A DNA stretch of 64,000 bases from Salana multivorans. Lineage in GTDB: Bacteria > Actinomycetota > Actinomycetes > Actinomycetales > Beutenbergiaceae. The position numbers and the translations under genes were made by a program. The stretch lies in NCBI RefSeq assembly GCF_003751805.1, contig NZ_RKHQ01000001.1:868001-932000 (forward strand). Reading direction: 5' to 3'. The notes under the pieces are model-generated. The model was not told the DNA's origin, ran no database searches, and worked only from the letters and a program-made list of their open reading frames with translations. This document shows, piece after piece, positions 23,822 to 44,840 of this stretch (its first letter is position 1; each line of letters opens with the position of its first letter).

Positions 23822-23909
23822 GCGTCCCAGGGTAGACGGGGGCACCGACGTTTTGGCCGGGCGCTCACGAGGCTGTGGACGGACGGCACCGCGGACCGCC
23901 GGGTAGACG

Positions 23910-31229: not shown

Positions 31230-31742
31230 ATGACGACGCCGAACCCCTACGGACCGCAGCCCTCGGACACGCCCCCGGGCGTGACGACCCCGGGCACGAC
31301 GCCGCCCGGCGCCTCGGTCCCGGGCATGCCGAGCCCGTCCGGGTCGCCCTACGGGGCGCCGTCGTACGGGTCCCAGCCCTACGGCGCGACCCCCTACGGC
31401 CCCGGTACCCAGGACGCGCCCGTCGCCGGGCCGCCGGCCGGCTCGCCCTACCAGTCGGCCTACCCGTACGACGCCATGCCGTACCGCCCGACGAACCAGC
31501 TCGCGATCGTCGCGCTCATCCTCTCGCTCGCCGGTCTCGCCACGTTCCTCACGGCCCCGGCCGGTGCGATCTGTGGTCACATCGCGCTCGGGCAGATCCG
31601 ACGCAACCCGGGTCAGCAGGGCTACGGGACCGCCGTCGCGGCGATCGTGAGCGGCTGGGTCATCACGGTCCTCGGCCTCGCTGCCGCCGCGTGGTTCATC
31701 TGGGTCATCACCCAGCTCTCCACGATCCCGAACCAGTACTGA
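31230..31742 (+). CDS. DUF4190 membrane protein
   Basis: 170 aa. The N-terminal 85 residues are Pro/Gly/Tyr-rich with repeated PYG and SPYG units, probably disordered and cytoplasmic. Two membrane helices follow: NQLAIVALILSLAGLATFL and GWVITVLGLAAAAWFIWV, separated by GHIALGQIRRNPGQQG, the DUF4190 signature. GAGGAGAA ribosome site before the ATG. Function unknown. Confidence 0.85.
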   Translation: MTTPNPYGPQPSDTPPGVTTPGTTPPGASVPGMPSPSGSPYGAPSYGSQPYGATPYGPGTQDAPVAGPPAGSPYQSAYPYDAMPYRPTNQLAIVALILSLAGLATFLTAPAGAICGHIALGQIRRNPGQQGYGTAVAAIVSGWVITVLGLAAAAWFIWVITQLSTIPNQY

Positions 31743-31780
31743 GATCGGTCGGACCGCCGTCACCGCGGCCCCGGAAGCAC

Positions 31781-31815
31781 TGAGGGCCCCGTCCGACAAG
31801 CGGACGGGGCCCTCA
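31781..31815. terminator. Strong bidirectional hairpin terminator
   Basis: A 15-bp perfect stem (TGAGGGCCCCGTCCG and its complement) around ACAAG, followed by GCGTTT. It lies between the DUF4190 gene and the convergent tRNA-Ser(CGA). Confidence 0.85.
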
Positions 31816-31825
31816 GCGTTTCGCG

Positions 31826-31912
31826 CGGTAGCGGTGGGATTTGAACCCACGGTGGCTTTGACACCACACAGCATTTCGAGTGCTGCACCTTCGGCCGCTC
31901 GGACACGCTACC
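31826..31912 (-). tRNA. tRNA-Ser (anticodon CGA)
   Basis: Class II tRNA of 87 nt on the minus strand. Acceptor GGTAGCG pairs with CGCTACC, anticodon loop CTCGAAA carries CGA, a long variable arm is present, and the T-arm reads GTGGGTTCAAATCCCAC. CCA not encoded. Confidence 0.95.
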
Positions 31913-31922
31913 CAGCCCGGAA

Positions 31923-40667: not shown

Positions 40668-42068
40668 ATGGCTTCCCACTTTGATGTCGTCGTCCTCGGT
40701 GCGGGCCCCGGTGGCTACGTCGCCGCCATCCGTGCAGCGCAGCTCGGCAAGTCCGTCGCCGTCGTCGAGAAGAGGTACTGGGGCGGTGTCTGCCTCAACG
40801 TCGGTTGCATCCCGTCGAAGGCACTCCTGAAGAACGCGGAGCTCGCCCACACGCTCACCCACGAGAAGGCCAAGTACGGCATCGAGGGTGACGCCACCAT
40901 GTCCTACGGCCCGACGCACGCGCGCAGCCGTGCCGTGTCGGAGGGGATCGTCAAGGGCGTCCACTTCCTCATGAAGAAGAACAAGATCACCGAGGTCGAC
41001 GGCTGGGGAACGCTCACCAGCCCGAACTCGATGGACGTGGCGCTCGGCACCGGGGGCACGGAGCAGCTCACGTTCGACAACCTCATCCTCGCGACGGGCG
41101 CCGTGACGCGGATGCTCCCGGGCGTCCAGGTGAGCGCCAACGTCGTGACCTACGAGGAGCAGATCCTCGACCCGAACCTGCCCGGCTCGATCATCATCGC
41201 CGGCTCGGGCGCGATCGGCGTCGAGTTCGCGTACGTGCTGAAGAACTTCGGCGTCGACGTCACGATCGTCGAGTTCCTCGACCGGATGGTCCCGACGGAG
41301 GACGCCGAGGTCTCCAAGGAGCTCGCCAAGCAGTACAAGAAGCTCGGCATCGACGTCCTGCTCTCGACCAAGGTCGAGGCCGTCGAGGACACGGGCTCGG
41401 GCGTCCGCGTCACGGTGTCGCCGGCGGCCGGCGGCGAGCAGCGGGTGCTCGAGGCCGACCGCCTCCTGTCCGCGATCGGCTTCGCCCCGCGGACCGACGG
41501 CTACGGGCTCGAGAGCACCGGCGTCGCGCTCACCGACCGCGGCGCCATCGCGATCGACGAGTACATGCGCACCAACGTGCCGAACATCTACGCGATCGGC
41601 GACGTGACGGCGAAGATGATGCTGGCGCACGTCGCCGAGGCGCAGGGGATCGTGGCGGCCGAGACGCTGGCCGGGGCCGAGACCATGTCGATCGACTACC
41701 GGTTCGTGCCGCGTGCGACGTACTGCCACCCGCAGATCGGCTCGATGGGGCTCACGGAGCAGCAGGCCCGCGACGCCGGCCACGATGTCAAGACCGCGAC
41801 GTTCCCGTTCAGCGCCAACGGCAAGGCCCAGGGGCTCGGCGAGCCGGTCGGCTTCGTCAAGATCGTCGCCGACGCCGAGCGCAACGAGATCCTCGGCGCG
41901 CACATGATCGGCCCGGACGTCACGGAGCTGCTGCCGGCCCTCAACGTCGCGCAGACGTGGGACCTCACGGCGGACGAGGTCTCCCGCGTGATCTTCGCCC
42001 ACCCGACGCTCGGCGAGGCCGTCAAGGAGGCCCTGCACGGCATCTCGGGCCACATGATCAACTTCTGA
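40668..42068 (+). CDS. lpdA: Dihydrolipoyl dehydrogenase
   Basis: 466 aa FAD/NAD flavoprotein, the E3 component of pyruvate, 2-oxoglutarate and branched-chain dehydrogenase complexes. FAD loop [14 protein letters not shown], redox disulfide [13 protein letters not shown] (residues about 41-46), NAD loop [12 protein letters not shown], and the C-terminal His-Glu pair in [19 protein letters not shown] at 40656-40661, 6 nt before ATG, gives a leaderless pattern. Confidence 0.97.
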
Positions 42069-42111
42069 GGCTCCGGCCTCACCCGCGGCCGGCCCGACCG
42101 ACCGCGCGCCC

Positions 42112-42144
42112 ACGGCGCCGCTCCCCTCCCGGGGGCGGCGCCGT
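42112..42144 (+). terminator. Terminator of lpdA
   Basis: ACGGCGCCGCTCCC pairs with the GGGGGCGGCGCCGT side: a 10-bp stem extended by CCC/GGG, 44 nt past the stop and followed by TTCGCG. Confidence 0.7.
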
Positions 42145-42430
42145 TCGCGTGTCGCGGGGCGGCCGGGACGTGGCGGCGCGGCGACCCAGCGGCGCGGCGC
42201 GACCCAGCGGCGCGGTGGCGATGAGGCGACGCGGCGGCGCGACGGCTCGGCGGCGCGACAGCCTGGACGGGGCCGACCGAGCCCGGCGCCGCCCCGTCGT
42301 CAGGTGATCTACACGGTCTGGCCCCGGCGGACTCACCCCGGCGTCGGGACGAGCCGAGGTGACCGGCCACGGCGACCAGCGGGGCGCCGATCGGACCCCG
42401 GGCCGCCGGCCAGCGCCTCGGCCGCAATAA
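42145..42430. other. Gene-free stretch between terminators
   Basis: No supported gene. The first half is low-complexity GGCGCGG-type sequence, with GCGACCCAGCGGCGCGG repeated twice near 42180-42215. No promoter or conserved structure identified here. Confidence 0.5.
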
Positions 42431-42748
42431 CGTGCACGGGTGGGGCCGGGTCAGACCCGGCCCCACCCGGCCCCGGTCCGGCGCGTACGGCACACGCTCA
42501 GTGACCGGCTCTCCTGAGCCGCAGGGGGCATGGTGCGGACTCAGGAGCACCTCGGTGCCAGCAGCCTTGTGAGGGCAAGGCGCCATGACTGCACCGAGGG
42601 GTCGTGTGGTGGGCGGGGCCGAAGCCCCGCCCGTGCGGCTCCGCATTCCGGGACGGGACGTCCACGGGGTGAGGGCACCCGGACGTCTCACCTACCCCGG
42701 TGGCGAAGCCACATGACTCGAGCCCGACCCCCCGCCGGGCTCGTGTCT
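42430..42748 (-). ncRNA. Candidate structured non-coding RNA, unidentified
   Basis: About 315 nt on the minus strand, bounded by a good promoter (42755-42782) and a 14-bp terminator hairpin (42438-42468). Hairpins in order from the 5' end: CGAGCCCG/CGGGCTCG (42743-42719), GTGGC/GCCAC (42712-42700), GGTGAG/CTCACC region (42692-42668), a 9-bp GGGCGGGGC stem capped by a TTCG tetraloop (42632-42611), CCTCGGTGC/GCACCGAGG with inner GCCTTG/CAAGGC (42599-42550), and CTCCTGAG/CTCAGGAG with inner CCGCA/TGCGG (42547-42511). No ORF with coding character lies on either strand. It lacks the conserved cores of RNase P RNA, tmRNA and SRP RNA. A regulatory sRNA or unknown RNA class is inferred. Confidence 0.6.
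42438..42468 (-). terminator. Terminator hairpin of the candidate RNA
   Basis: A 14-bp perfect stem GGGTGGGGCCGGGT around a 3-nt loop; minus-strand transcription then reaches CGTGCACGTTATT. Confidence 0.75.
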
Positions 42749-42754
42749 GGAACG

Positions 42755-42782
42755 AACATAGCGAGTCGTTCACAGCGTGCAA
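42755..42782 (-). promoter_or_regulatory. Promoter of the candidate RNA
   Basis: Minus-strand TTGCAC (42777-42782), 16-bp spacer, TATGTT (42755-42760). One of the best promoter matches in the window, in a locally AT-richer patch with no gene behind it except the structured region. Confidence 0.7.
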
Positions 42783-43055
42783 AGAAGCAACTTGATCGAG
42801 GTACAACCGAGCGCTTGCGTTGTGAGGCACTTCTAAAATGCCCAGCGCGGTCTCGCCGTACACAACCACCACCTGTGATATCCACCACGGCACCACCGAT
42901 CGGGCTTTGATGTCTCACATTGTGGTCGAGGGCCAGCCGTCGCACGTCGGGGCCCCACGATGCGCGTCCGGCCCGCCAGCGGCCGTGCGGCTGGTCAACC
43001 ACGCTCCCGACGCGCACACTGGCTGGACACCAGCACACGTCACCCGGGAGTCACC

Positions 43056-43751
43056 ATGGTCACCATCGCCGTCCACGGCGTCGCCAGCCGCCGGCTCGCA
43101 CCCGAGCGAGCCACCGTCACCGTCGTCGCGACCGCGACCGGGGACGACCGGGCCGACGTCGTCACCCGCGTCGCGACCCAGCACGACCGCCTCGGCTCCG
43201 AGGCCGCGGCGTTCGAGGCGGCCGGCGCCGCCGAGAGCTGGCACACCAACGGCCTGACGACGGGTATCACGTGGGAGTGGCGGACCGTCGAGGGAACCAA
43301 CGAGCAGGTGCGTCGCTTCCGCGCGGACGCCGAGGTCACCGTGACGTTCCGCGAGATCGGCGAGCTCCAGACCTGGCTGCTCGACGTCGCCCAGCGCGAG
43401 GACGTCGAGGTCCGCAGCGTCGGCTGGGACCTCACCGACGCCACGCGCACCACCGCGCTCAGCCTCCTGCGCGCCGCAGCCGTGACGGACGCGGTCACCC
43501 GCGCCGTCGACCTCGCGGACGCGGCCGGCCTTGGCACCCCCCGCCTGAGCGCCCTGTACGAGTCGGGGCTGCGCCCGGGACTCGGCGACGGCGGCCCGCA
43601 CCCGACGCCGATGTTCGCGCGCGCGATGTCGGCCGATGCCGGCGGCGGCTCCGGGCTCGACCTGCACCCGCAGGAGATCGAGCTGACCGCGACCGTCACC
43701 GCCGACTTCACCACCGGCTCCTCCACCCCCGCCCCGATCGCGGCGGGCTGA
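43056..43751 (+). CDS. SIMPL domain protein (DUF541)
   Basis: 231 aa. ITVAVHGV-like start (MVTIAVHGVASRRLAPERATVTV) and the SIMPL pattern of repeated beta strands and helices; no signal peptide, so cytoplasmic unlike many E. coli-type homologues. Function unknown; linked in the literature to IRAK-type signalling by name only and to oxidative stress in bacteria. CGGGAGTCACC precedes ATG. Ends 3 bp before the polymerase gene. Possible -10 TAAAAT at 42834-42839. Confidence 0.8.
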   Translation: MVTIAVHGVASRRLAPERATVTVVATATGDDRADVVTRVATQHDRLGSEAAAFEAAGAAESWHTNGLTTGITWEWRTVEGTNEQVRRFRADAEVTVTFREIGELQTWLLDVAQREDVEVRSVGWDLTDATRTTALSLLRAAAVTDAVTRAVDLADAAGLGTPRLSALYESGLRPGLGDGGPHPTPMFARAMSADAGGGSGLDLHPQEIELTATVTADFTTGSSTPAPIAAG

Positions 43752-43754
43752 GGC

Positions 43755-44840
43755 GTGGCGCGGGCGAGCGACGCGGTCGTCCTCGACGTCGACGGGCGCG
43801 AGGTCCGGGTCTCCTCCCCCGGTCGGGTCATCTTCGAGACGAGCCCCGAGCCGATCACGAAGCTCGAGGTGGCCGAGTACGCGCTCGCCGTCGGCCCGGG
43901 ACTGCTGGGCGCGCTGCGCGACCGGCCGACCGCGCTGGAACGCTGGCCCGACGGGTACCGCGAGGGGATGAAGCTGACCACCCGGGACGGCCAGCAGGGC
44001 GACGGCTTCTACTCCAAGCGCCTGCCGAAGGGGGCGCCCGACTGGCTCACGACCGCGCGGATCACCTTCCCGAGCGGTCGGACGGCCGACGAGCTGTGCC
44101 CGCGGGAGCTCGCGGCGGTCGTGTGGGCGGTCCAGATGGGCACGCTCACGTTCCACCCGTGGCCGGTCCGCAGCGGCGACGTCGAGCACCCCGACCAGCT
44201 CCGGATCGACCTCGACCCGCAGCCGGGCACCGACTTCGACGACGCGGCGCGGCTCGCACCGCTCGTGCGCGCGGTGGCCGAGGAGGCGGGCCTCACGCTG
44301 TTCCCGAAGACCTCCGGCGGGCGCGGGCTCCACCTGTTCGCCCCGATCAGACCCGAGTGGGACTTCCCGACGGCGCGCCGGGCGACGCTCGCGCTCGCCC
44401 GGGAGATCGAACGTCGCGACCCGGCCCATGTCACGACCGCGTGGTGGAAGGAGGAGCGCGGCACGCGCGTCTTCATCGACTACAACCAGATGGCGCGCGA
44501 CCGCACGATCGCCTCGGCGTACTCGCCGCGGGCCAACGGACGCGCGACGGTCTCGGCCCCCCTGCACTGGTCCGAGATCGAGACGCCGGGGCTCGTCTCG
44601 CCCGACGACTTCACGATCCGGACGATGCCCGCCCGCTTCCGCGAGGTCGGCGACCTGTTCGCCGGCGCGAACGGGGCGGCGGGCGGCTGCGAGCCGGCGG
44701 GCCTCGAGACCCTGCTCGAGTGGGTCGAGCGCGACGAGCGCGACCACGACCTCGGCGAGGCGCCCTACCCGCCCGACCACCCGAAGATGCCGGGCGAGCC
44801 GCCCCGGGTGCAGCCCAGCCGCGCGCGGCACGACGACTGA
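43755..44840 (+). CDS. LigD-type DNA polymerase/primase (Prim-PolC-like)
   Basis: 361 aa archaeo-eukaryotic primase-superfamily polymerase, the stand-alone equivalent of the LigD polymerase domain. Metal-binding acidic pair in LRIDLDPQPGTDF, nucleotide loop FPKTSGGRGLHLF, and the late Asp/Asn in VFIDYNQMARDRTIASAYS. Fills gaps during end joining or, as Prim-PolC does with LigC in mycobacteria, during excision repair. GTG start. The separate ATP-dependent ligase at 53088-54233 is a likely partner; no Ku gene is in the window. Confidence 0.9.
   Translation: MARASDAVVLDVDGREVRVSSPGRVIFETSPEPITKLEVAEYALAVGPGLLGALRDRPTALERWPDGYREGMKLTTRDGQQGDGFYSKRLPKGAPDWLTTARITFPSGRTADELCPRELAAVVWAVQMGTLTFHPWPVRSGDVEHPDQLRIDLDPQPGTDFDDAARLAPLVRAVAEEAGLTLFPKTSGGRGLHLFAPIRPEWDFPTARRATLALAREIERRDPAHVTTAWWKEERGTRVFIDYNQMARDRTIASAYSPRANGRATVSAPLHWSEIETPGLVSPDDFTIRTMPARFREVGDLFAGANGAAGGCEPAGLETLLEWVERDERDHDLGEAPYPPDHPKMPGEPPRVQPSRARHDD

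Follow-up and report, generated by a model that had tools for sequence, protein, structure and literature searches.

A candidate structured small RNA gene, divergent from a SIMPL gene, in Salana multivorans and a second genus of its family

The window analyzed here, a 64,000-nucleotide stretch of the 3.89-Mb Salana multivorans genome (G000:C1:868001-932000), contains a 1-kb gap without genes between lpd, an oxidoreductase gene ending at 42068, and a gene for a SIMPL (DUF541) protein at 43056..43751 (Pfam PF04402, E 1.5e-27), which is followed by a LigD polymerase-domain gene. The proposed RNA lies in this gap on the minus strand. Both lpd and SIMPL are on the plus strand, as expected from the initial annotation, which had described flanking genes that read the other way. 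Its description of the interval as gene-free was also borne out, as no frame resembled coding sequence. Third-codon-position GC was 0.58-0.87 in the six gap frames vs. 0.96 and 0.97 in the flanking genes, and Pfam returned nothing up to E 0.1 for four of the six; on these grounds, we rejected a protein-coding reading of the gap. By BLAST, the interval is a single copy in its own genome. Just 3′ of the lpd stop, a GC-rich hairpin at 42110-42150 looks like the lpd terminator, and its sequence GGCGCCGCTC...GGCGCCGT is kept behind lpd in three other genomes of the family (G004, G005, and G006). Short GC-only direct repeats (e.g., CGACCCAGCGGCGCGG) occupy 42170-42250, between this putative lpd terminator and the terminal hairpin of the RNA.

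The proposed small RNA gene spans approximately 320 nt (42424..42748, minus strand), with the start placed 6-7 nt after the -10 element and the end placed after the terminal hairpin; its fold z score, its rank among tiles of the window, and a putative homologue in G006 all point to it. The minus strand of the interval (353 nt) folds at -221.5 kcal/mol, with a z of -7.5 vs. dinucleotide shuffles, and the plus strand has a z of -5.5. Among 320 tiles of 320 nt taken from the window (both strands, one fold each, with regression on dinucleotide content), the minus-strand interval was the most over-stable of the sample, at a residual z of -6.0 that 0 of 320 tiles reached. The initial annotation had named it the window’s best candidate for an undescribed element. 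The next most over-stable tile and the only other clear outlier, 31601-31920 (residual z -3.4 and -3.3 on the two strands), overlaps a tRNA-Ser gene at 31825-31912.

In the predicted minimum free energy structure, the window RNA forms separate hairpins in a row, and neither a closing helix nor a central bubble is present. Its parts, all on the minus strand, begin with a first hairpin, GAGCCCGGCGGGGGGTCGGGCTC (42720..42742), recognized by fold and reading and not seen in G006, and with a G-rich 5′ motif, GTAGGTGAGACGTCCGGGT (42677..42695), of which 13 nt are identical in G006. These are followed by a 9-bp GC hairpin with a UUCG tetraloop (42611..42632, by direct reading and fold), by hairpin A, with the loop CCCUCA (42550..42599) and compensatory changes in G006, and by hairpin B, with the loop CCAUGCCCCC closed by GCA/UGC (42511..42547), for which G006 has 12 identical letters and a compensated stem. 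A terminal hairpin with a perfect 15-bp stem (42437..42469, by direct reading) closes the series. The hairpins initially described, including the GC stem with UUCG, are thus present in both sequence and fold. The 14-bp terminator said to end the element is a more qualified case: the hairpin exists, with 15 bp rather than 14, but the term was too strong, since the tail carries a weak, displaced, U-rich GUUAUU and no proper U-run, and a program scan of 41000-44500 reported no terminator. Because this U-rich tail is weak and displaced, we only infer a terminator role, in which the hairpin would likely act bidirectionally between the RNA and lpd.

The Rfam search that had been suggested as a check matched no family. 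Nothing reached a gathering score within the interval, and the fifteen matches at E up to 10 over 42069-43060 were all far below theirs. Within the window, gathering-score matches were limited to SRP RNA at 23906 and two tRNAs, all outside the interval, and the RNase P RNA of this genome lies at G000:C2:771114. The claimed absence of the cores of RNase P RNA, tmRNA, SRP RNA, and common riboswitches was confirmed in this way, as none of them gave a gathering-score match in the interval. A limited literature search, part of which matched mostly on general terms, found no description of this RNA.

Searches at the DNA level were fruitless. Outside its own genome, BLAST of the interval against 24 genomes of the family found only two short pieces. 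Plasmids and phages yielded only short, weak pieces (best E 3e-3) with no convincing relative, and nothing convincing came from loci with lpd relatives in 80 named genomes. We therefore used synteny, in which the constant neighbor is SIMPL, not lpd. SIMPL relatives are present in 12 of the 24 family genomes, including the window’s own, and upstream DNA was read in 10 of the 11 others (the eleventh being G018). Opposite the SIMPL orthologues of G000, G004, G005, and G006, GATCAAG is followed after 30-31 bases by TA[T/A]GTT; the latter three are all the genomes of genus g5, a second genus in the family. The promoter was therefore found in 3 of the 10 other genomes read, all g5, and the seven other SIMPL upstream regions (G001, G007, and five of genus g9) were without it. 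The gene downstream of the RNA is convergent in all four genomes, being lpd in G000 and G005 and a gene for a WYL regulator in G004 and G006; in these last two, the gene end-on to the RNA encodes an HTH_11-WYL protein. Promoter and synteny thus place the candidate beyond the species, in four genomes and two genera, with g5 as the only other genus. Two of the refuting outcomes named in the initial annotation, a known Rfam family and a lack of conservation outside the species, therefore did not arise.

In the window, the -10 element TATGTT (42755..42760, minus strand) is preceded, across a 16-bp spacer, by a directly read -35 element, TTGCAC (42777..42782, minus strand). In G004, G005, and G006, the spacing between GATCAAG and TA[T/A]GTT is that of the window to within 1 base, and a TTG stands near the place corresponding to -35 with an 18-bp spacer. 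The initial annotation had called the window promoter near-consensus, which is an overstatement: TTGCAC-16-TATGTT (42782-42755) agrees with the sigma-70 consensus at 7 of 12 positions by our own count, a program scan of 41000-44500 reported no promoter, and the loose form TTGN3-N16-18-TAN3T was found in 8% of shuffles of the promoter-bearing stretch. Only its conservation makes the window promoter convincing. Of 396 genomes from the order, 16 contain the promoter pattern, at 20 places, compared to 6 for a reversed control (own count). SIMPL, located by tblastn of the window’s SIMPL protein against the fetched surroundings, is within 1.5 kb of 5 of these 20 places, all in the four genomes (the G005 promoter copy appears twice, near both contig ends), and within that distance of none of the 15 others. 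Among the 24 family genomes, the pattern is confined to the SIMPL locus of G000, G004, G005, and G006 and one extra G000 site.

The extra site (G000:C2:577465-577509) is a leaderless-looking TTGATC-17-TACGTT with a CTTGATC-N6-GATCAAG palindrome; it precedes a gene that is presumably SatD-like, adjoining one that we take to be aroB-like. Pfam gave only HTH-type matches for the former gene, the best being GerE, in its C-terminal part. The two G005 copies reflect an lpd-RNA-SIMPL stretch near both ends of one 3.67-Mb contig (G005:C1:53457 and 3653134), which probably means that the overlap of a circular assembly was left untrimmed.

The region just upstream of -35 contains candidate operator boxes. 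In G004, G005, and G006, the best-scoring 14-mers against the palindrome TTRAY-N4-RTYAA are centered exactly -70.5 and -39.5 from the -10, i.e., 31 bp apart, with distal and proximal scores out of 10 of 10 and 8 in G004 (where the proximal 8 is tied with another 14-mer at -81.5), 10 and 9 in G005, and 10 and 10 in G006. The window has a single weak box, a proximal 14-bp putative regulator box TGTACCTCGATCAA (42792..42805, minus strand) that scores 8/10 at -38.5, and no clear distal box. Approximately 20% of shuffles of the 110-base upstream stretch reach 8 or more, so that the score alone is not unusual and only position speaks for the window box; its GATCAAG half lies at -37/-38 from the -10 in all four genomes. 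Boxes of at least 9/10 occur as 80 copies, overlapping ones counted, in 892,302 bases of fetched loci, in which two such boxes 31 bp apart are seen at this promoter of G005 and of G006 and nowhere else. As the consensus was derived from these same promoters, the evidence lies solely in how the boxes are spaced and in their absence elsewhere. FNR and PrfA boxes (TTGATNNNNATCAA and TTAACANNTGTTAA) share the 5-N4-5 geometry of the candidate boxes by form only. A SatD-type operator site was rejected as a model, since the CTTGATC palindrome at G000:C2 has a 6-bp gap, unlike the boxes here.

The RNA body, compared by sequence, diverges fast. The window and G006 share GAGACGTCCGGGT and CATGCCCCCTGC (12-13 bases) in the same order, and both their longest common word (13 nt) and their colinear chain were reached by 0 of 200 dinucleotide shuffles. 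The chain between the window and G005 was reached in 78 of 200 shuffles and that with G004 in 200 of 200, with no significant words. Within g5, the figures were 18 of 200 for G006 vs. G004 (borderline), 48 of 200 for G006 vs. G005, and 200 of 200 for G005 vs. G004. By our own reading, the G005 and G004 bodies are short, at approximately 105 and 135 nt. When hairpins A and B of the window alone were turned into a covariance model and 193 kb were searched, the best score apart from the window’s own belonged to the G006 locus (23.4 bits, E 0.071), and the next match had 15.0 bits. Run over the complete G006 genome, the same model returned nothing up to E 10. This result speaks against strong homology, and homology with G006 therefore rests on synteny and two sequences. 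Matches of this model at E 3.9-9.9 in G001, G009, G004, and G005 were taken for chance, as none was at the SIMPL locus.

Paired changes between the window and G006 indicate that hairpins A and B are maintained. Seven of the 32 pairs differ on both sides, with 93.7% of cells paired in an alignment that was fitted to the window’s structure; of 500 shuffles, 7 equalled the number of changed pairs and 4 the 93.7% pairing, and sliding the structure lowers pairing to 28-48%. The C-rich loop letters of both hairpins are identical in the two genomes. Taken alone, the loop pattern was found in 24 of the 396 genomes, a frequency similar to that of its reversed control (23, own count). When 24 of the 25 loop-pattern places were folded (one, off-centre and near a contig end, was omitted), only in the window and G006 did the loop letters stay unpaired on a stem stronger than -20 kcal/mol; four other places folded below -20 kcal/mol but with these letters paired. 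With strict filters and scoring limited to 10 candidates in each genome, a two-sequence model likewise retrieved only the window and G006 among the 396 genomes. We considered and rejected a kissing interaction of loop B with the G-rich 5′ loop, which looks possible in G006 (GCAGGGG/CCCCUGC, own reading) but is not kept in the window.

These comparisons bear on whether the RNA itself is what selection maintains. The selected feature could instead be a cis element, a divergent promoter and operator controlling SIMPL, with the RNA body a by-product closed by terminator hairpins. In its favor, the boxes lie between the two start points, and the promoter and boxes are conserved in four genomes in which the G004 and G005 bodies are unlike that of the window. 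The seven compensated pairs in hairpins A and B speak against such a by-product, as does a window body structured far beyond what one would need, and we regard this explanation as fairly unlikely. It seems improbable that there is no functional RNA at all and that the long gap merely holds inverted repeats of high GC content, terminators working in both directions, and the remains of an insertion. Both strands fold well, the boundaries are very GC-rich, and the lpd-SIMPL gap in G005 is only approximately 355 bp, all of which would suit this idea, but it is opposed by the conserved promoter geometry and linkage, by the related body in G006, and by the lack of a second genomic copy or of a convincing relative in phages or plasmids. 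The interval is very likely to hold a small RNA gene. At the level of sequence comparison, synteny, the promoter in four genomes of two genera, and the paired changes in G006 support the claim of an intergenic structured RNA that has its own promoter. The interval also has what generally marks stand-alone bacterial small RNAs, namely a promoter of its own, no open reading frame, and a convergent downstream gene.

How such an RNA might work can be approached through known actinobacterial RNAs. Ms1 RNAs are approximately 300 nt long, and in both Ms1 and 6S RNA a long helix closes the molecule around a central open bubble. Like Ms1 and scr3559, the candidate is an actinobacterial intergenic RNA of similar size, weakly conserved in sequence and kept by synteny. 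Its hairpins might therefore be active in binding or sequestering a protein (RNA polymerase, as 6S and Ms1 do, or a regulator) rather than in pairing with mRNA. This reading is favored by the very stable hairpin array, by the Ms1-like size, and by the prediction of one long rod over much of the G006 body. We nevertheless consider it unlikely, because the predicted shape of the window RNA is a linear array of separate hairpins rather than a 6S-like rod, lacking a closing helix and a central bubble, and because the Rfam search at E up to 10 did not list 6S RNA. The synteny also differs: Ms1 is placed between HAD-IB hydrolase and oxidoreductase genes (PMC9130861), and the flanks here are lpd and SIMPL, neither a HAD-IB hydrolase. 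On these grounds, both Ms1 and 6S RNA were rejected as identities for the candidate.

The WYL genes end-on to the RNA in two genomes suggest a further arrangement. One source describes an Sm/Hfq-like fold in WYL domains, presents RNA or another nucleic acid as a proposed activator of such regulators in Actinobacteria, and states that no Hfq homologue has been identified in this phylum (PMC6789036). The RNA would here be the nucleic-acid partner of the WYL-domain regulator, with the C-rich hairpins as the ligand and the promoter boxes as part of the circuit; we hold this to be very improbable.

We tentatively favor a regulated, stand-alone antisense RNA. In this proposal, an RNA of approximately 320 nt would be read from the minus strand, in the direction leading away from the SIMPL and LigD-polymerase genes, from a promoter switched by a DNA-binding regulator at the TTRAY-N4-RTYAA palindromes just upstream of -35, and the regulator could possibly switch SIMPL together with the RNA. 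Divergently transcribed small RNAs under a dedicated regulator form a general class, which the candidate resembles in having its promoter back to back with a protein gene and operator-like boxes in between; the boxes match CRP/FNR-type 5-N4-5 geometry only by form. The RNA would act in trans by antisense pairing, in which mRNAs with G-rich ribosome-binding sites would meet the C-rich loops CCCUCA (A) and AUGCCCCCUGC (B) presented by rigid hairpins. Within the 64-kb window, sequences complementary to loop B (CAGGGGGCATG, at most one mismatch) were confined to the RNA gene itself.

The closest analogy for this mode is 6C RNA, whose two hairpins each bear a loop of at least six C. Mai et al. are said to have identified these C-rich loops, in 2019, as target-binding sites, and C-rich loops in stable hairpins would fit antisense binding to G-rich start regions in the way reported for 6C. 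Likenesses include a stand-alone actinobacterial small RNA and neighboring hairpins with C-rich loops. The differences are in length (a 75-position model vs. approximately 320 nt) and in the loops, which are CCCUCA and that of hairpin B here vs. two six-C loops in 6C. The 6C family (RF01066) was not among the fifteen matches at E up to 10 in 42069-43060. It was equally silent at E ≤ 0.001 in all 24 family genomes, a result with a weak control, as only Corynebacterium glutamicum scored among 14 control genomes, and below the cut-off. This silence may reflect divergence, loss, or low sensitivity. A likely reading by analogy is that the RNA shares an antisense mode with 6C without being a member of that family, which is described as widespread in Actinobacteria (PMC9569102).

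The interval very probably specifies a genuine and undescribed small RNA, which recurs with the same promoter and SIMPL neighbor in a second genus of the family. Synteny and promoter geometry can evidently recover an RNA that Rfam and BLAST miss. To our knowledge, few small RNAs have been described in Actinobacteria outside Mycobacterium, Corynebacterium, and Streptomyces. Given the precise layout of candidate operators, the stable gene partner, and two maintained C-loop hairpins, both the regulator and the targets of this RNA could be identified by ordinary experiments.
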